This document shows, piece by piece, positions 41,434 through 54,620 of a DNA stretch of 64,000 nucleotides (its first letter is position 1; each line of letters starts with the position of its first letter). A program made the translations under genes and the position numbers. Below the pieces are notes generated by a model. The model did not search any database. It was not told the DNA's origin and saw only the letters and a list, made by a program, of their open reading frames with translations. The stretch is from Acidobacteriota bacterium. GTDB lineage: Bacteria > Acidobacteriota > Terriglobia > Terriglobales > SCQP01. The stretch spans positions 248,001-312,000 of the forward strand of contig DAIDIE010000014.1 of the NCBI GenBank assembly GCA_027459505.1, in the 5' to 3' direction.

Positions 41434-41772
41434 GGATTTCGTCGTTTGCCGTTTCGGTAAAGTTAGGCTCTTCTGCGCGCTGCCCCACCGGCCCCACTCT
41501 CGATCGAGCGCCCTCACAAGCAAAGGATCTGGCCTGACGCCCCCTCCCGGTCCCGCTGTTAGGGCTTGCCGGCGGCGTCGCTTGGCGCGCCCCATTCTGC
41601 CCAGTACCGCGCTTTCACTGCCCCGCCCGCCAGCCCGTCACCTCTGGTGCGTTATCGTAAAGCAGGCGGTACCCCACTAGCGGCCGCCAGCCGTCATGCC
41701 CTTGGGCAGCGCGAATGGTTTCCCCATCCGGGCAGCGGCCGTCCGCCGCGTTCCACAGCAACGGAGGCTTTG
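41434..41772. other. Divergent intergenic region
   Basis: 339 bp between the start regions of the acyl-CoA synthetase (-) and the CPBP protein (+). Nothing recognised beyond the GGAGG ribosome-binding site at 41763 for the latter. A longer open frame through this stretch lacks coding character. Confidence 0.6.
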
Positions 41773-44700
41773 ATGAGTGAGGTCCAGATCCTTCCCCAGC
41801 CGGTTCCCGCCGGCTCGCGTTTTGGCCGCAACGATGCGCGCTTTGTGCTGTTGACGCTCCTTTTGGCCGTGGTCTCCCTCGCGGTTGCCCTGCATTTCTT
41901 TCACCGCGCGTTTCCCCAAGCCAATATCGATTTTCGCACTACCAACAGCGGAGCGCGGCAGATTGCGCGGAACTACCTCGCGGCGCAGCATCAGGCGCCG
42001 CCCGCCGGTTACCGCAACGCTGGACAGTTTGGTTGGGACGAGCACGCGCAAATCTTTTTGGAGCGCGAGCTGGGCGTGGCCGCCGAGGCGCAGCTCAACA
42101 AAACCCGCATCCATCTCTGGCGCTGGGAGGAACGCTGGTTCGAACCGCTGCAAAAAGAGGAGTTCCGGGTTGCCGTCACCCCCGATGGACAAGTGGTTGG
42201 CTTTCGCCACCTGCTGCCTGAAGCCGCGCCCGGAGCGCAACTGGACCAGACGGCGGCCGAGAAGTTGGCGGTTGACTTTCTCCACGCCCGCAACCTCCAT
42301 CCGGAGGCGATGACCTTTATTCGCGGCGTGCGGCATGTGCGCCCGGCCCGCACCGACTACGTCTTCGAATGGGCCGACAACACACCCCTCAGCTCCACAG
42401 TGCACAACGCCGCACTGGCCCAGGCCAATTACCGCTATGAGGTCTGGGTGCAGGGCAACGTGGTCGGCGGATACCGCGAGTACCTGCATATCCCCGACTT
42501 CTGGCTGCGCAGTTATCAGCACATGCGCTCGAAAAACGAGACCACCGGCGAGGTCGACACCGTCCTCATGCTGCTGCTGATCGTTGCGGGAATTATCGTG
42601 CTGGTGAGCCGTATCCCGCGCGGAGACGTGCATTGGCGGCCGGCCCGCTGGGTGGGGCTGATTGGGGGACTACTCGGCTTCCTGACGCAGCTCAACAGCC
42701 TGGGCAGCGCTACCTACGGTTACGACACCAACTCGTCTTATCCGGCCTTTCTGGCGCGCGGCATCTTTATGGCGCTGCTGGCCGGGGTGGGTATTGGCGC
42801 GCTGCTGGCGCTGATCACCGCCTTCGCCGAACCGCTGTACCGGGAGCACTTCAAGTCGCATCTCGCGCTGCCCAGCCTGCTTTCCTGGCGCGCCTGGCGA
42901 ACCCGTTCGACCTTCCGCAGCCTCTTGCTCGGCCTGGGCTTGGCGTGTTTCTTCTTCGCCTACCAGTCGGTGTTTTACGTCATCGCCAACCACTTTGGCG
43001 CCTGGGCGCCGGCCGACGTCTCCTACGACCAGTTACTCAACAGCCGCTGGCCCTGGCTTTTTGTGCTCTTCATGGGGTTTTTCCCCGCCATCTCGGAAGA
43101 GTTCGTCTTCCGCATGTTCGCCATTCCCTTCTTCGCCAAATACCTGCGCTGGATGCCCTTGGCGGTGGTGCTGGCCTCGTTTCTCTGGGGCTTTGGACAC
43201 GCCACTTATCCCAATGAGCCGTTTTACATCCGCGGCCTGGAAGTGGGTTTGGGCGGAATCATCCTCTCCGTGATCATGATTCGCTTTGGAATTCTGACCA
43301 CTCTGGTCTGGCATTACACCGTAGACGCGCTCTACACCGCGATGCTGTTGCTGACCTCGCACAGCCTCTACTTCCGTGTGTCCGGCGGCCTGACCGCATT
43401 CATTACGCTGATTCCGCTGGCCGCCTGCATCGTCGCCTACCGCCGGCACGGCGGGTTTGCGGAAGAGGCGGGACTGCGCAACGAAGATGTGGGGACGGCC
43501 CCCCCTTTGAATTCCGAAGCTGCCGAAGCTGCCTCTATCATCGCCCTCCCCAGTTACCAACGCGTGCCGCGTAAGGTCTGGCTGGGCGCTGCCGTGGTTG
43601 CATTGGCGCTGCTGGCGAGCTTCGCATTGCGTGTACCGGGTTGGAGGGTGATGCGGCCCGGGGTGACTCCGGCGCAGGCGGCAGCGCAAACCAGCGCATT
43701 TCTCACCAGTCATGGCGTGAACCTGCGCGGTTACAAAGTGGTGGTCAGCAGCGGGAGCGCTCTCACCCCCAATCCGCTGCTGCCCGGCGATAACGCGCAA
43801 CGGCATGTGACCGCGGTCGCGGCCCACGCGCTGTTCCGCGCTCAGGGCGCCCAGGCGGTGCACAACGCCCTCACCGGGCGCACGCCGATCACCTACTGGC
43901 GCGTGCGCTATTTCAAGCCCGACCAGAAGCAGGAATACGTCGTGCGCTTGCGTCCCAGCGGCAACGGAATTGTCGGGCTGCACCATATCGTTCGCGACGA
44001 CGCTCCGGCGGCTTCACCAACCCAGTCCCAGGCAATTGCGCTGGCTTCGGCCTTCCTCACGCGAATTGGTTATAACCCGGCGGGGATGACCTTGAAGGAG
44101 GCGGAGCAACTGCGGCGCCCGGCGCGCATGGACACCAGCCTGCTCTGGCAGGCGCCTCCCGATCCCCAACTGGCGCCCGCCGATTTCCGCCTGCAAGCCC
44201 TGCTCCAAGGCACCGAAGTCTCTCAGTTCCGCCCACTGCTGCATGTGCCCGAGACCATGGTGCGGCGCGCGGACCGGCGCACCGTGTTCTCGATTCTGCC
44301 CGGCTTTTTCGATCTCGCCACCATGTTGGCGCTGGCGGTGCTGGTGCTGACTTTGTTTTACGAGGCGGTGCGGCGGCGCGAGGGAGAAGCCTACACTGCG
44401 GTGCCTTGGAAAGCGGTCTTCCTGGTGGCCAGCGCGACCGGGCTGCTGGACGCCATTGCCGCCGTGGACCGGTTCAAGCAGGTCGAAATGGCGCGCTACA
44501 CCACCAACTACGCCTGGTCGCTATGGCAGACGACCTCGGTGATCAGTATCCCTGTATCGTTCCTAGCCGGACTGCTGCCCATGGCGCTGCTGTTACCTCC
44601 GTTGTTACGCGTGGCCCCGCGGGTGCGGGAACTCGCGTCTCCTTTGGCACGGCGTTTGTGGGCGCGCGACGCGTTTTGGGCAAGCCTGGCGGCGCTGGCC

Positions 44701-45237
44701 ACCGCGGCCGGATTCGAGCATCTGCTGCGGGTGTGCAGCGAACATTTTCATCGCGTGGGCGCTTTTCCACTGCCCTCTCTCGATGCGTACACCGGCTTGG
44801 TGCCCGGAATGGGCGACACCGCGCTGGCAATCTCGCATGCCATCCTGCTGTCCGCCCTTTTCGGGATTCTCGCCGCGTGGTTAGGCGGCCAGCTCAAGGC
44901 CGGACGTGGGTGGCTGCTGGCCCTCGCGGTAGTCGCATTCGCGGTCGCTCAGCTGCCCGCCACGCACTCGGCCGCGGCCTTCGCCTTCAACTTCGCTCTC
45001 GGCCTGGCGACCTGGATTCTGGTGGCCGCCTTTACCTGGTTCCTTTTGCGCGGCAATCCGCTGTCGTATCTATCGGCGGCAGTGGTCATTGCGCTGGCTG
45101 GCGCCGCCGCTCCGCTCCTGGAAGCGCCGCTGCGTTATTACCGCATTCCCGGCCTGATCGTCGTTCCGCTGGGAGTGGTGTGGCTGGCCTGGGTCTGGCT
45201 CCAGGGCGCCGGAGCGGTCCGCGGCACGGGCAACTGA
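41773..45237 (+). CDS. Very large membrane protein with a CPBP (CAAX-like) protease core and two extracytoplasmic domains
   Basis: 1154 residues, three to five times longer than ordinary CPBP proteases. N-terminal helix (about 23-43), a 200-residue extracytoplasmic domain with PepSY-like segments (SGARQIARNYLAAQ, EEFRVAVTPDGQVVGFRH), then a membrane block containing all CPBP motifs: SEEFVFRMF near 441 (EExxxR), FLWGFGHATYP near 472 and WHYTVDAL near 513. A second extracytoplasmic domain of similar type follows (about 630-840: VTPAQAAAQTSAFLTSHGV, VRLRPSGNGIVGLHH), and then six or more further helices. The catalytic glutamates and histidines are present, so activity as an intramembrane metalloprotease is plausible. 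GGAGG lies five bases before the ATG. Confidence 0.82.
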   Translation: MSEVQILPQPVPAGSRFGRNDARFVLLTLLLAVVSLAVALHFFHRAFPQANIDFRTTNSGARQIARNYLAAQHQAPPAGYRNAGQFGWDEHAQIFLERELGVAAEAQLNKTRIHLWRWEERWFEPLQKEEFRVAVTPDGQVVGFRHLLPEAAPGAQLDQTAAEKLAVDFLHARNLHPEAMTFIRGVRHVRPARTDYVFEWADNTPLSSTVHNAALAQANYRYEVWVQGNVVGGYREYLHIPDFWLRSYQHMRSKNETTGEVDTVLMLLLIVAGIIVLVSRIPRGDVHWRPARWVGLIGGLLGFLTQLNSLGSATYGYDTNSSYPAFLARGIFMALLAGVGIGALLALITAFAEPLYREHFKSHLALPSLLSWRAWRTRSTFRSLLLGLGLACFFFAYQSVFYVIANHFGAWAPADVSYDQLLNSRWPWLFVLFMGFFPAISEEFVFRMFAIPFFAKYLRWMPLAVVLASFLWGFGHATYPNEPFYIRGLEVGLGGIILSVIMIRFGILTTLVWHYTVDALYTAMLLLTSHSLYFRVSGGLTAFITLIPLAACIVAYRRHGGFAEEAGLRNEDVGTAPPLNSEAAEAASIIALPSYQRVPRKVWLGAAVVALALLASFALRVPGWRVMRPGVTPAQAAAQTSAFLTSHGVNLRGYKVVVSSGSALTPNPLLPGDNAQRHVTAVAAHALFRAQGAQAVHNALTGRTPITYWRVRYFKPDQKQEYVVRLRPSGNGIVGLHHIVRDDAPAASPTQSQAIALASAFLTRIGYNPAGMTLKEAEQLRRPARMDTSLLWQAPPDPQLAPADFRLQALLQGTEVSQFRPLLHVPETMVRRADRRTVFSILPGFFDLATMLALAVLVLTLFYEAVRRREGEAYTAVPWKAVFLVASATGLLDAIAAVDRFKQVEMARYTTNYAWSLWQTTSVISIPVSFLAGLLPMALLLPPLLRVAPRVRELASPLARRLWARDAFWASLAALATAAGFEHLLRVCSEHFHRVGAFPLPSLDAYTGLVPGMGDTALAISHAILLSALFGILAAWLGGQLKAGRGWLLALAVVAFAVAQLPATHSAAAFAFNFALGLATWILVAAFTWFLLRGNPLSYLSAAVVIALAGAAAPLLEAPLRYYRIPGLIVVPLGVVWLAWVWLQGAGAVRGTGN

Positions 45238-45271: not shown

Positions 45272-45910
45272 CTAGGGCAGGGAGGCGAGGAGATCGTCGC
45301 CAGTCCAGACCGCGGCGTAGCGCTGACCGCCACCGTACGTGGCGCGGGTCAAAACAAACGGCCGCCGGTTGGGCCGCAGCTTCAGCAGCGCCGCGTAGCT
45401 GGCGCGCGACATCTGCTGGCCATAAACGTTGTGGTCCTCGCGCGCGGTACTGGGCTGTCCGTCGTTGAAGAAGCGCACGTTGTCTGGCGTAGTCGCAATG
45501 GGTGTCTTAAACACCGACGGCTCGTTCATATCGTTCCATAAGCCATCCACACCCACCGCGGCAAACCGGCCTGCCTCAGCTTCCCACCAGTTACGCACCG
45601 CCGTGCTGGTGAAGTCCGGAAAGGCTGCGTTTCCGGGCCAGACTGGGCCGATGAACGGCGTTCCGTCCGGATTGCTCAGGAAAGCGTGCCGTTGCAGACC
45701 GTGCTGATAGACCGCGTAGTGCGCGTCCTGTTTCAGCCCGGGATCGATGATAGTCACCGTGTGAAAGTGAATCGAGTGCAGATAGCGCATCAAACGCCCG
45801 GGATGCGGGAATCCCTTGGGATCCCAGGTGAAGTCACGGAAGCCGTTCATGTAGGCGATATCGAACCAGATGCCGTCGGCGGGAATCCGCTTCTTGCGGA
45901 CAGGGCGGCC
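45272..45910 (-). pseudogene. Truncated remains of a GH31 alpha-glycosidase
   Basis: A catalytic-domain fragment with GH31 landmarks: GIWFDIAYMNGFRDFTWDP, the nucleophile-bearing WNDMNEPSVF (about 45511-45540), and TYGGGQRYAAVWTGDD with the region of the acid/base. Normal GH31 enzymes exceed 600 residues; here an N-terminal domain is absent and the sequence stops right after WTGDD, without the rest of the barrel. The longest ATG-started stretch is 45272-45850, but homology runs on upstream to about 45905 without a start. Repeat copy 3 lies 50 bp further upstream. It is best read as a decayed gene. Confidence 0.8.
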
Positions 45911-50095: not shown

Positions 50096-51592
50096 TCAGT
50101 TGGGAAACACACCCTGGCACGCTTGGAGCGCCAGCTTCGCCTCTACGCCCTGAAAGCCAAAGCCGGACCAGCGATAGGCGGCAACGCGGGTTCCCTTGGA
50201 ATCGGGTTGGAGCAACAGGAAGGAGTCTTTGCGATGCAGAGCGCAGAGCAGCGAGGCCGCGTTCTGGACCGAGCCGTTGCCCTTTGTGCTCTCAACGGGC
50301 ACTGCATCGAGCAGTGGCCACGCCAAAGCGGTACCCCGCCAGCGGGCCACTAATCCGCGCCGCGTGACCTGGTAGACGTAGGGTCGAATCGCGTCCTCGT
50401 CATCCATGATCGAGCGGTGGCGTTCCAGGCTGAGCAGCGCCGGGGCCTGCGAAGCGCCGAAGAAGTGGGCTGGCGCCAGGCTGATCTCGTCGCGCGGCCG
50501 GGCGCGCCACAGTAGCCGGCCGGCGCGCCAACCCTCAACGACCAGACGCCGATTATCTTCGGTCTGGGATGAACGAATCCAGGGCCGCAGAGAAATCCCG
50601 CCGATGCGCAGCGTGGGGTGCAGGTGGACCGCGCAACTGCGCAGCACTTGATTGGACGCTGCGTCGGGGCCGTCGTCATGCGGAAAAAAGTCTCCGTCGG
50701 CCGTGAGCGTGCGCTCGGCGCGGCACGCGAGCTCATCGTTTTGAATGCGGCAGATAGCCAGCAGCCCGCGCTTGCTCTCCCGGTACTTCTGGTCAAAAAG
50801 GGTGTTGCCCAGCGAAAAAAACACGGCATGACCGCGGACGCATTCCGGTCGCTGAATCACGTGAGGGTGCATGCCGATAACAACACCGGCGCCATGGGCA
50901 ATCAACCAGCGCGCCGCGCTCTCTTGCTCGGCATTAGGCCAATCCTGCAGCTCGGTGCCCCAATGCACGTAGACCACGGTGAGATTGGCGAGAGAGCGCG
51001 CGAGGCGGAGCTTCTGCCGGAGCGCAATGCTGGGAATGGACACGCGGCGACCGTCTTTTTCCGGCACAGTGGTGATCGCGATAATGGCGATAATGCGCGA
51101 TCCTACTCGCATGAAATGTGGCGACCCGCTGTAGTCCCAAACCCCTAACCCGTCAGCTCGCAGAGCTGCGCTGGTGCGTCGGCGGCCCTCCGGGCCAAGA
51201 TCGCCAGCGTGATTGTTTTCCACTCCTACCTGAGTAAATCCCGCGCGCCGTAGCAGGACGGCAAGTTGGGGGTTGACCGCGAAACATGGGCCCCTGTCCG
51301 CGGGGCTGCTGGCCTGCACACACTCCCTTGAAGAACCAAGCGCTCCTTCGAGGTTGCCGGCCACAACCGCGCCACGAAGCTGCCGCCGCAGCCCGGCCAG
51401 CGGGGGCCGGCGTGTAAGCTGAACTTCGCGCGCCACTTGCCGGGCAAGCAACAGGTCGCCCGCGAAAACCAGGCGCGGACGCGCTGCCCCGGCAGTTTTC
51501 ACTGTCTTGGCGCGCGCCGCTGCGCGTACCTGGCCCGACGCTGCCCCTTGCAGCGCCAGCCCGGCCATCAGAACGGCAATTGTGCGGGACAT
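50096..51592 (-). CDS. CapA-like (PGA_cap) metallophosphoesterase-fold protein
   Basis: 498 residues from ATG 51592 with a signal-peptide-like N-terminus (MSRTIAVLMAGLALQGAASG). The CapA fold signatures are RLVFAGDLLLARQV near residue 39, GAVVAGNLEGALG, VGVENNHAGDLGPEG, VVYVHWGTELQDWP and GAGVVIGMHPHVIQ, followed by FFSLGNTLFD. CapA proteins assist poly-gamma-glutamate or capsule handling in some bacteria, but no pgs genes are near. Its 5' end overlaps the 3' end of the DUF3160 gene by 25 nt, so the two are coupled. The C-terminal 180 residues form an extra domain without recognised family. Confidence 0.85.
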   Translation of the reverse strand: MSRTIAVLMAGLALQGAASGQVRAAARAKTVKTAGAARPRLVFAGDLLLARQVAREVQLTRRPPLAGLRRQLRGAVVAGNLEGALGSSRECVQASSPADRGPCFAVNPQLAVLLRRAGFTQVGVENNHAGDLGPEGRRRTSAALRADGLGVWDYSGSPHFMRVGSRIIAIIAITTVPEKDGRRVSIPSIALRQKLRLARSLANLTVVYVHWGTELQDWPNAEQESAARWLIAHGAGVVIGMHPHVIQRPECVRGHAVFFSLGNTLFDQKYRESKRGLLAICRIQNDELACRAERTLTADGDFFPHDDGPDAASNQVLRSCAVHLHPTLRIGGISLRPWIRSSQTEDNRRLVVEGWRAGRLLWRARPRDEISLAPAHFFGASQAPALLSLERHRSIMDDEDAIRPYVYQVTRRGLVARWRGTALAWPLLDAVPVESTKGNGSVQNAASLLCALHRKDSFLLLQPDSKGTRVAAYRWSGFGFQGVEAKLALQACQGVFPN

Positions 51593-54411
51593 GAGAGCGT
51601 TTCGCGTTCGATAAACGGCGCCACCCAGGCCGGATGCGCCTCCCGGTCCACCAGCTTGAGCCACTCCGCATCGCTGAGCACTTCGCGCGCGGGACGGCTG
51701 AATTCATAGTAGGAGTACACCGAACCCTTCACAATCTCATGCTGCCCAAAAAAGGGAACGATTTGATCCCACTCCAGCGGCCGGCCCACCGCGGCATACA
51801 GCAGCGACGCCTGACCACCGCCAGAAACGTCCGCAATCTTCGGCATCGGCACCGGTGTGGATAGAGCGTAGCCGGGGTTCGCGAGACTGTTGAATACTTT
51901 GAAGTTGTACTCCGCCACGCGCGCGTAATACAAAATTGCATCGTAATCGGCCGGGCGCAACGGACGTCCGGACAGCTCGTCGGATGCCATGCGCGCGAAC
52001 TCGCGTGCCTGCTGTGCGGCGTTGCGCAGCCTTCGGGCGATGCCGGCATCGCGCCGCAACGCATTGGCTCTCCTGACAGCGGTGCCGTGGTGATTGGCGT
52101 CCCAATGCTCCTGCCCGTTTTCCAGCTGAATTGCCGTGTCAAAAAGTCCGGCGATAGACAGAAACGCCTTGGGATCAGGTTCAACGTACCCCCGCGGCGG
52201 CGCCATCACCAGAAACTCGAAGCCACCCTCCCCGCATTCAGCGCCGGTGCGCTCGTTTACCAAAAGCGTGGCATGGCGCAATGTGGCCCAGGAAGCCAGA
52301 CCGGTCTGCAGCCGCTTGATTTTCCAGATCTTCGGGGGTCTTCCCACGCCGGAAAAGCGGACGGCTTGCGCCCAGCTTTCACCCAGCGCTTCCATCCAGC
52401 GGTCATAAAGATCGGGTGCGGAAGGAGAACGCCGCCAGCGCTGGTTTAACTTTTGCAGCGCGTACCCAAGCGGCGGGTATTTCTTGATTTCCGGCTGCAG
52501 CAGCTCCACTGCCGTCGAGCTTCCCAGGGCGGCGGCCACGTCCAGACCCGAAGGAAGCAGACGTGGCCCATCCATTCCTTGAATCCGTTCCGCTAACGGC
52601 CACTGAGGGTGATAGACCGTGGAATCCAGAACTTCGTTGTCGAATCCCCAGGAGAGGGGAAATATCCGCGGCGTCTTTATTGGATGTGCGGAGTAGCTGG
52701 CGACCGGCATGGTGTTGCCCCATAGCAACGGAGCTCGGCTGGGTGCAATGAACCCGCCGTAAGCTCGCACCCATTGCAGCGCAGCCTGAGAAGCTGTGGC
52801 TGGCATCGATCCCAGCAACCGCATTTGCCCGGGACCCGCGCTGGCGCCGGCTGCTGTCAGATAACGGAACGCCCTGAAGTACCCCTGCAGCGCGGCATTG
52901 GCGGTGTAATGTCCACGAGGCTTGAAATCGGCATAGTCGATCTCCTTCCTGCCTCCGGGCGGAGTGTGGACGCCCCGGGCGGCGATTACTCGCAGCGCCT
53001 CTGGATTGTGCGTCGCCGTCTCATGAAGAGCGGCGATGGTTTGAAATGTCATCCCCCAAAGGCCGCGCGGCGATTTTGCCTGCCAATACTGATTCGCCAG
53101 CGCCACAAAGCGCCAGAAGGCGGGAATGGCGCGGGCGCGCTCCTGTACCAGGAACATCCCGTTATAGGCAGCCGCAAAGGTTTCCCAAAAGGCGTCGCTG
53201 GTCGCCATGTAAGGCCGCGTTGGCAGCGTCTGGGAAAGCCCGCCGCACTGGTAAAGCTCCGAGTCGTACAGTTGATAAAGCTGGTCGTCACCGGTTTCGC
53301 GGAACACGCCGGTGTCACCCTTGAAGTGCCGCATATCTGCGGCGGACTGGACAAACATCCAGGCGTTGACCACATCAGCCAGGGGCATTGAGATCGGGGT
53401 GTACGTCAGGCGCTCGCGCTTCGTGTTGCCGGTGACGCCCACCAGTCCACGCCCGTCGGCGGTGCTGGAGGGGGCTCTGCGAAAAAGTTCTCCCGCCGCC
53501 TCAATGCGATTTTTTTCACCCCACCTCTCCAAAATGTCTACCCCCGCGCTGCGCGGCTGCCACCGGATCAGACCGAGTCCGTTGGCTGTAAACGTAACTG
53601 AGCCGCCGCACAGCGGCGTCCCTGCCCAGCGCAGCGGGCGCGAGCCCTCCCAGTGGTCCGTGGCATATACCGCGGCCTGCACACATCCCGAGCTGTTCTG
53701 CCACAGTAATTCGTCTCCCGCCGGGAAAAACGCCAACGGCAGCGCCGAGCGCGCCGTAATACCGCTGGCCTCCTTCTTCATCCCTGATTGCGGGCCGGCG
53801 AACTGGTACATCCGCTCGCCCTGGGTCGTAATCGACAAGGTCCGGTAACGTCGGCCCTGATCGCGAACCGCGAAAAACACCCGGTAGTACTGACGCTGTG
53901 CATCCTCATTGAAGAATGGGCGCGGCGCGGCCAGGAGACGGCGGATGGCGTATGCGCTTCGGTAAATGCGGCGCGCCGCCCAGCAACTCCCTGCGCAGCC
54001 GTGACTGCCCGCCACGATCTGCGGCTCCAGCCGCAAAATAGCGCTACCGCCGGCCTGCGCGCCGGCAATGAATAAGACCTGTTTGGCTGGGTGCCAGGTC
54101 ACGGCGGAGATACGAAAGCCCCTTGGCGCCTGCCAGATGGCGTTCAGATGGTTCGTGCCAATGCGCCACAACCCAACAGTGTCTGGCCGCAAGGGCCGGC
54201 GGATCGCCACCGCAACCAGTGGTCCTTGCCGGGAGAGATCCAGATCAACAACGCGCGTGCCTGGCGCAAGCCGCAATGATGCCGCGTGCGAGGGGCTCGC
54301 CTCCACGGGCATGGGCGTGTGCGCGAAGGGACTAGTGGCAGCGGAAAGTTGCAGGCTAACGGCAGCGGTGGCCAGCAGCGTAACTGCTGTTCGAATGTAG
54401 GCAGAGGTCAT
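51568..54411 (-). CDS. Secreted DUF3160-family protein
   Basis: 947 residues from ATG 54411, with a signal peptide (MTSAYIRTAVTLLATAAVSLQLSA). The first 330 residues have WD/beta-propeller-like character (VVDLDLSRQGPLVAVAIRR, ISAVTWHPAKQVLFIAGA). The remainder is DUF3160: FWRFVALANQYW, PSGLDVAAALGSSTAVELL, LASWATLRHATLL, PRGYVEPDPKAFLSIAGLFD. The family is secreted and of unknown function. A longer frame reaches 54543 but runs into repeat copy 4. It is followed, overlapping, by the CapA-like gene, so a shared surface or envelope task is likely. Confidence 0.85.
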   Translation of the reverse strand: MTSAYIRTAVTLLATAAVSLQLSAATSPFAHTPMPVEASPSHAASLRLAPGTRVVDLDLSRQGPLVAVAIRRPLRPDTVGLWRIGTNHLNAIWQAPRGFRISAVTWHPAKQVLFIAGAQAGGSAILRLEPQIVAGSHGCAGSCWAARRIYRSAYAIRRLLAAPRPFFNEDAQRQYYRVFFAVRDQGRRYRTLSITTQGERMYQFAGPQSGMKKEASGITARSALPLAFFPAGDELLWQNSSGCVQAAVYATDHWEGSRPLRWAGTPLCGGSVTFTANGLGLIRWQPRSAGVDILERWGEKNRIEAAGELFRRAPSSTADGRGLVGVTGNTKRERLTYTPISMPLADVVNAWMFVQSAADMRHFKGDTGVFRETGDDQLYQLYDSELYQCGGLSQTLPTRPYMATSDAFWETFAAAYNGMFLVQERARAIPAFWRFVALANQYWQAKSPRGLWGMTFQTIAALHETATHNPEALRVIAARGVHTPPGGRKEIDYADFKPRGHYTANAALQGYFRAFRYLTAAGASAGPGQMRLLGSMPATASQAALQWVRAYGGFIAPSRAPLLWGNTMPVASYSAHPIKTPRIFPLSWGFDNEVLDSTVYHPQWPLAERIQGMDGPRLLPSGLDVAAALGSSTAVELLQPEIKKYPPLGYALQKLNQRWRRSPSAPDLYDRWMEALGESWAQAVRFSGVGRPPKIWKIKRLQTGLASWATLRHATLLVNERTGAECGEGGFEFLVMAPPRGYVEPDPKAFLSIAGLFDTAIQLENGQEHWDANHHGTAVRRANALRRDAGIARRLRNAAQQAREFARMASDELSGRPLRPADYDAILYYARVAEYNFKVFNSLANPGYALSTPVPMPKIADVSGGGQASLLYAAVGRPLEWDQIVPFFGQHEIVKGSVYSYYEFSRPAREVLSDAEWLKLVDREAHPAWVAPFIERETLSCPAQLPF

Positions 54412-54459
54412 GAGGAGTAGCCCCGCCCGGCGACTGCGGGGGCGAGAGCATCTTACCTC

Positions 54460-54620
54460 AGGAGCGAGCCACCGAGTCCTCCCTGCGGGAGGAGATCGCA
54501 GGTGGAGGGCCGCGAAATTCCCCCCGGGGTCCCCGACCTTCACGTTCTCACTGGAGAACGTGCCAGCGACCCAACGGAAAGCAATGCCAGCGGGCGGCTC
54601 AGGAGACGAGGCCGTGCCTC
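54460..54620 (+). repeat. Dispersed structured repeat, copy 4 (internal deletion)
   Basis: 161 bp, AGGAGCGAGCCACCGAG to GAGGCCGTGCCTC, nearly identical to copy 2 at both ends, but the segment between GCGAAATTCC and TTCACGTTCTC is replaced by a short C/G-rich stretch. Its last two bases form part of the stop codon of the flavoprotein gene (54619-54621), so the element abuts that gene exactly. Confidence 0.85.

Follow-up and report, generated by a model that had tools for sequence, protein, structure and literature searches.

CPBP-family proteases are common in bacteria, and a role is known for few of them. Members of the CPBP/Rce1 family (type II CAAX proteases, PF02517) share a membrane core with EE...R, H and H...D motifs. 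Rhomboid pseudoproteases (iRhoms) keep an intramembrane protease fold without its catalytic residues and are thought to act as regulators. In the proteins described by the NCBIfam model NF041647, a CPBP protease is joined to a different membrane unit, an ABC permease. The myxosortase MrtX, from a Gram-negative bacterium, is a glutamate intramembrane protease of the CPBP family; its published description gives it seven helices without a tandem copy (PMC11980579). PepSY domains, whose fold has been published as one helix and four antiparallel strands (PMC10653890), include protease inhibitors and partners of envelope enzymes; among them, YpeB may keep SleB inactive until germination (PMC10653890, PMC13393411).

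A gene in the window (the whole 64,000-nucleotide stretch of an Acidobacteriota genome analysed here) encodes a protein that resembles each of these systems in part. It has the motifs and membrane core of the CPBP/Rce1 family but is set apart from that family by its length of 1,154 residues, its two units with large PepSY-like ectodomains, the catalytically dead second copy within its chain and a family motif of its own, GHxxYPxxPxxxRxxE. The fold of its ectodomains, in which a repeat made up of one helix and four strands occurs in tandem, is that of Bacillus YpeB (5boi), the PepSY superfamily and DUF4901, although only the ectodomain is comparable with 5boi, sequence identity is ~12% and the matched structure has no CPBP membrane domain. 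The window protein matches NF041647 in its CPBP core only, at 27.7 bits where the cut-off is 435, and its protease unit is fused to a copy of itself. iRhoms are of an unrelated fold and are separate proteins, whereas in the window protein dead and active copies share one chain. The CPBP/Rce1 core and the PepSY fold are thus known, and what appears new is their combination with a fused dead copy, of which we found no description: a search of open-licence papers returned no CPBP protein with PepSY or regulatory ectodomains, with a fused pseudoprotease half or with SpoIIE- or kinase-fused relatives, no paper linking PepSY or CPBP with SpoIIE in this sense, and none naming DUF4901.

Our preferred reading, to which we assign a probability of roughly 55%, is that a glutamate-type (CPBP/Rce1) intramembrane protease is fused in one chain to a full pseudoprotease copy of its own unit and that the dead copy regulates it. 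Cleavage of a membrane-anchored substrate is expected of the first half from Rce1-type protease chemistry, with water activated, as we propose, by E442/E443 and two histidines. The dead half would pack beside the active half as an in-cis partner or regulator, and an envelope signal or a substrate would bind the PepSY domains, shift the helices and so gate the active half; we infer these steps from ligand to cleavage.

The two-unit chain and its catalytic core

The original prediction of a 1,154-residue CPBP protein holding all three family motifs is borne out. The gene is a single unbroken ORF on the forward strand (41773-45237), its ATG at 41773 and its stop codon ending at 45237. Each half of the product opens with a single helix, continues with a pair of PepSY-like repeats that form the ectodomain and ends in a block modelled with nine helices (Table 1). 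By the positive-inside pattern of loop charges, the N terminus and the loops at residues 279-289, 350-384 and 558-602 lie inside, from which the N terminus is predicted to be cytoplasmic and both PepSY pairs to lie beyond the cytoplasmic membrane.

Table 1 Features of the two-unit gene, and gene products that carry a non-catalytic unit of the same kind
Feature	Position	Strand	Residues or size	Basis and remarks
CPBP protease-pseudoprotease gene	41773..45237	+	1154 aa	ORF, Pfam, homologues
GGAGG, Shine-Dalgarno-like	41763..41767	+		5 bases 5' of ATG; from sequence
Unit 1, first membrane helix	41827..41910	+	19-46	Topology and model
Ectodomain 1, PepSY-like repeat 1	41944..42213	+	58-147	Model and YpeB 5boi (Z 11.7, whole ectodomain)
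Ectodomain 1, PepSY-like repeat 2	42247..42489	+	159-239	Model and fold comparison
Membrane block 1 with CPBP core	42496..43449	+	242-559	Pfam, topology, model
Motif 1, EEFVFR	43096..43113	+	442-447	E442, E443, R447 constant in 42/42 first halves
Motif 2, GHATYPNEPFYIRGLE	43195..43242	+	475-490	H476, R487, E490 constant in 42/42 first halves
Motif 3, HYTVD	43312..43326	+	514-518	H514, D518 constant in 42/42 first halves
Unit 2, first membrane helix	43573..43629	+	601-619	Topology and model
Ectodomain 2, PepSY-like repeat 1	43669..43989	+	633-739	Model and YpeB 5boi (Z 12.7, whole ectodomain)
Ectodomain 2, PepSY-like repeat 2	44023..44244	+	751-824	Model and fold comparison
Membrane block 2, CPBP-derived, without catalytic residues	44251..45210	+	827-1146	Profile alignment, model
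SpoIIE PP2C phosphatases with N-terminal non-catalytic PepSY-CPBP membrane part	L065:1737-4193, L118-L124, L150, L152-L161			
Ser/Thr protein kinase, then non-catalytic PepSY-CPBP unit	L151:249-2903		885 aa	PF00069 (1.4e-55); one frame

The Rce1-like domain PF02517 is the sole Pfam domain in the window protein (residues 425-519, E = 2.5e-11), and its score of 44.1 bits is about twice the curated cut-off of 22.4 bits. All CPBP catalytic positions (EExxxR, the motif-2 histidine and HxxxN/D) are filled, by E442, E443, R447, H476, H514 and D518, and these six, together with P483, R487 and E490, are constant in all 42 first halves compared. When PDB chains were searched with models of the two halves, matches to the ectodomains filled the list and no Rce1 chain was among the matches listed, which says nothing against an Rce1 fold; a sequence search of solved structures with the N-half and C-half profiles gave nothing useful.

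On this evidence the first half is an apparently active CPBP/Rce1-type protease. An alternative interpretation is that the membrane core is a scaffold, a transporter partner or an immunity-type membrane protein, as might be argued from the position of some single-unit relatives (family f5) directly behind an ABC-2 transporter pair, from the weak match to a permease-CPBP fusion and from the fact that protease activity is read here from sequence; but we consider this very improbable because the catalytic positions are constant in 42 distant first halves and lost in second halves and in the fusions described below, as expected if catalysis is selected in the first half only.

Internal duplication and the second half

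The original prediction had placed two related PepSY-like segments at about residues 45-250 and 630-840, with a second membrane block after the core, and had proposed an internal duplication in which one half alone kept the protease. Profiles were built from 42 first halves (window protein residues 1-599) and 42 second halves (residues 600-1154), and they align over 491 columns spanning ectodomain and membrane block (probability 100, E = 2.3e-65). By segment, the ectodomains (~49-241 and ~633-824) match over 193 columns at E = 2.1e-52, and E is 3.3e-19 for the membrane blocks, whose final helices match more weakly (E = 5.3e-6, probability 86); reversed-profile controls reach 0.016 or worse. 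The second halves of some homologues also match the first half of the window protein directly (for example, L059 at 6e-22). The second membrane block was recovered both by topology prediction and in the model. Since each half comprises leading helix, ectodomain and membrane block, the duplication spans the whole unit and not the soluble part alone.

Structure models of the two halves agree: in each, a single helix leads into an ectodomain of two repeats, and the helices of the block that follows come in the same order. The N-half model (md0679f61d0fc) is good (pLDDT 81.6) and the C-half model (m1ca253bafc4a) moderate (pLDDT 67.2), and because the alignment behind the latter contained N-half rows, its agreement with the former is not fully independent. 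In both models the ectodomain consists, by DSSP order, of two repeats of one helix and four strands each, with extra helices in the first repeat. The C-terminal domain of Bacillus megaterium YpeB (5boi) is the top PDB match of ectodomain 1 (Z = 11.7, 144 residues, r.m.s.d. 5.1) and again of ectodomain 2 (Z = 12.7, 143 residues, r.m.s.d. 5.4), the next-best matches of both lying far below, at Z ~7. The two soluble regions therefore share a profile and a top structural match, as the original prediction had them related. DUF4901 (YcdB/YcdC repeat) is matched by Pfam in 18 of 37 first-half relatives, at best at 2.3e-7, and Pfam PepSY is marginal at most in the second halves of relatives (0.015 at best); the window protein itself has no Pfam PepSY or DUF4901 match at E ≤ 1. 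Because the fold agrees but these Pfam matches are absent from the window protein, we describe its ectodomains as PepSY-like by fold and not as members of Pfam PepSY.

Loss of the catalytic set is confined to the second halves. There, none of the six catalytic residues is kept in 33 of 42 sequences and one is kept in the other nine, in each case the histidine in the H476 column, and EExxxR is absent at the aligned place from all 42. By these alignments, the second half (residues 600-1154) is homologous to CPBP proteases by descent only, having lost the catalytic set. By comparison, the equivalents of the ectodomain residues W118, R193, D195, G228, P241 and R246 are kept in 39-42 of the 42 second halves. 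Informative near pairs give dN/dS values of 0.07-0.34 for second-half segments, somewhat above the first half and well under 1, from few close pairs, none of which includes the window gene; a value of 0.93 for the pair L047/L056 was set aside because it involves hardly any synonymous changes. The conserved ectodomain residues and low dN/dS argue that the second half has been retained as a pseudoprotease and is no decaying remnant. That it is instead a functionless, decaying passenger of an old duplication would accord with its faster evolution relative to the first half and with its diverged last helices, but full length is kept in ~30 genera, the ectodomain residues are conserved in 39-42 of 42 sequences and dN/dS lies well below 1, so that we regard this reading as already disfavoured and scarcely credible.

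Distribution and descent

Matches to the window protein were found in 11 of 14 genomes of the family and, patchily, in 17 of 298 genomes of the order. In a sample of the phylum, the window protein as query matched 42 of 396 genomes and 34 of 211 genera, and the profile matched 73 of 396 genomes, a count that includes single units, fusions and ordinary CPBP proteins. Whole-genome searches gave two-unit homologues ~1,120-1,230 residues in length, and counting by frame length and double matches places the two-unit form in ~30 genera of Acidobacteriota. This recurrence rules out misassembly or chance fusion of short CPBP proteins as its origin; the two-unit architecture is old in Acidobacteriota. 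Named homologues belong to Bryobacterales and to one further Acidobacteria genome. A contig scan with six exact peptide patterns, by themselves a narrow test of other phyla, matched Acidobacteriota only, and a plasmid collection contained no real homologue. The window gene is alone of its kind in its genome, where other, ordinary CPBP matches are present.

Homologues with one unit, about 550-640 residues long and with their catalytic motifs intact, also exist (family f5, L043, L044, L045 and L054; family f28, L066, L108, L163 and L164), and one genome (G042) carries both single-unit and two-unit kinds (L026, L162). At L055, L098 and L099, f5 single-unit CPBP genes immediately follow a gene pair for an ABC-2 ATPase and permease, and genes for SpoIIE phosphatases and for a response regulator of the LytTR type lie upstream.

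In trees of the main group, N halves form one clade and C halves another. Single units fall outside N plus C in the FastTree analysis (support 0.80), and because the deepest branching order is not resolved in the more careful tree, one duplication and two are both possible. A distant two-unit clade (L047, L056-L058, L061-L063) has motif variants of its own; N and C halves of the distant clade (L056-L063) group together in the FastTree analysis and not in the careful tree, a pattern from one tree that hints at an independent duplication. In genome G077 the two-unit gene is split into two frames of 196 and 554 aa (L106:6868-9022, reverse strand), either by assembly error or because the gene is broken. 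A 2,066-aa frame (L060) was rejected as a longer protein, its upstream 946 aa having no Pfam match and probably being mere open frame.

No neighbour of the two-unit gene is conserved and none points to a substrate; apparent conserved neighbour clusters were produced by antisense shadow ORFs. Downstream of the window gene lies an acidobact_VWFA protein (TIGR03436), in keeping with an acidobacterial setting. Also in the window are a remnant of a GH31 alpha-glucosidase (45272-45850, reverse strand), whose 239-aa frame covers only positions 31-232 of the 328 in the profile and of which four full-length copies occur elsewhere in the genome, and a 991-aa DUF3160 protein (51568-54543, reverse strand) adjoining a PGA_cap capsule-type protein.

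Non-catalytic fusions and the role of the ectodomains

In the phylum search, the first-half profile also matched frames of 724-885 residues, in most of which a PepSY-CPBP unit that lacks catalytic residues precedes a SpoIIE PP2C phosphatase domain. The SpoIIE domain was identified by Pfam in L065/L118 (E = 3.6e-46), L119, L121, L150, L152, L155, L157, L158 and L159, and by C-terminal sequence in others; in one further frame a Ser/Thr kinase precedes the unit (Table 1). Compared by profile with the window family, the SpoIIE-linked units match in the ectodomain (E = 9.6e-24), the membrane block (1e-17) and the catalytic part of that block (1e-8), with reversed controls at 0.1 or worse, and the catalytic set is lost wherever it can be aligned. 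Most non-catalytic fusions score higher with the first-half than with the second-half profile and thus need not stem from second halves, of which descent the profile scores give no sign.

These fusions bear on what the ectodomains do. One possibility is that the PepSY pairs dock substrates for a constitutive sorting or processing protease with a role like that of myxosortase, the second half being a second docking platform without signal gating. MrtX, also a CPBP protease, cuts the C-terminal anchors of Myxococcus surface proteins (PMC11980579), and ectodomains beside the active site could bind substrates; but we consider this unlikely because docking of protease substrates makes little sense for a non-catalytic unit on SpoIIE phosphatases and a kinase, and no partner gene was found nearby. 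Alternatively, the PepSY domains could inhibit the protease from within the chain, the role proposed for M4 metallopeptidase propeptides, and be cut or displaced to activate it. The first description of PepSY domains was as intramolecular inhibitors of proteases (Yeats 2004, as cited in PMC10653890), and YpeB, the nearest fold, is proteolysed in germination (PMC13393411); yet built-in inhibition seems improbable where the active site lies within the membrane and the ectodomain outside it, where the second ectodomain belongs to a unit that is dead and where, in the phosphatase and kinase fusions, there is no protease on which an inhibitor could act.

A sensor role of the soluble domains, as in our preferred reading of a regulated protease, is plausible and is strengthened by the SpoIIE and kinase fusions of the PepSY-CPBP unit. 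Because the PepSY-CPBP unit, in non-catalytic form, is also linked to phosphatase and kinase domains, we think that the unit itself detects a signal in the envelope and relays it across the membrane, and we infer that it is a transmembrane sensing module with exchangeable outputs, the output here being intramembrane proteolysis. More broadly, and with slightly less than even confidence, we suggest that a PepSY ectodomain and a CPBP-derived block together may form a general bacterial receptor module, a protease fold turned signal transducer, whose outputs would be a protease, a PP2C/SpoIIE phosphatase or a Ser/Thr kinase, and of which the window protein would be the protease form with a dead receptor copy in cis.

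The natural tandem of active and dead units offers a direct route to asking how a glutamate intramembrane protease is controlled. That a non-catalytic unit is joined to signalling enzymes elsewhere in the phylum suggests that bacteria have put a protease fold to a second use, as a receiver of signals. If confirmed, the presence of the catalysis-stripped unit in phosphatases and a kinase would mark out an as yet unnamed family of receptors in Acidobacteriota.
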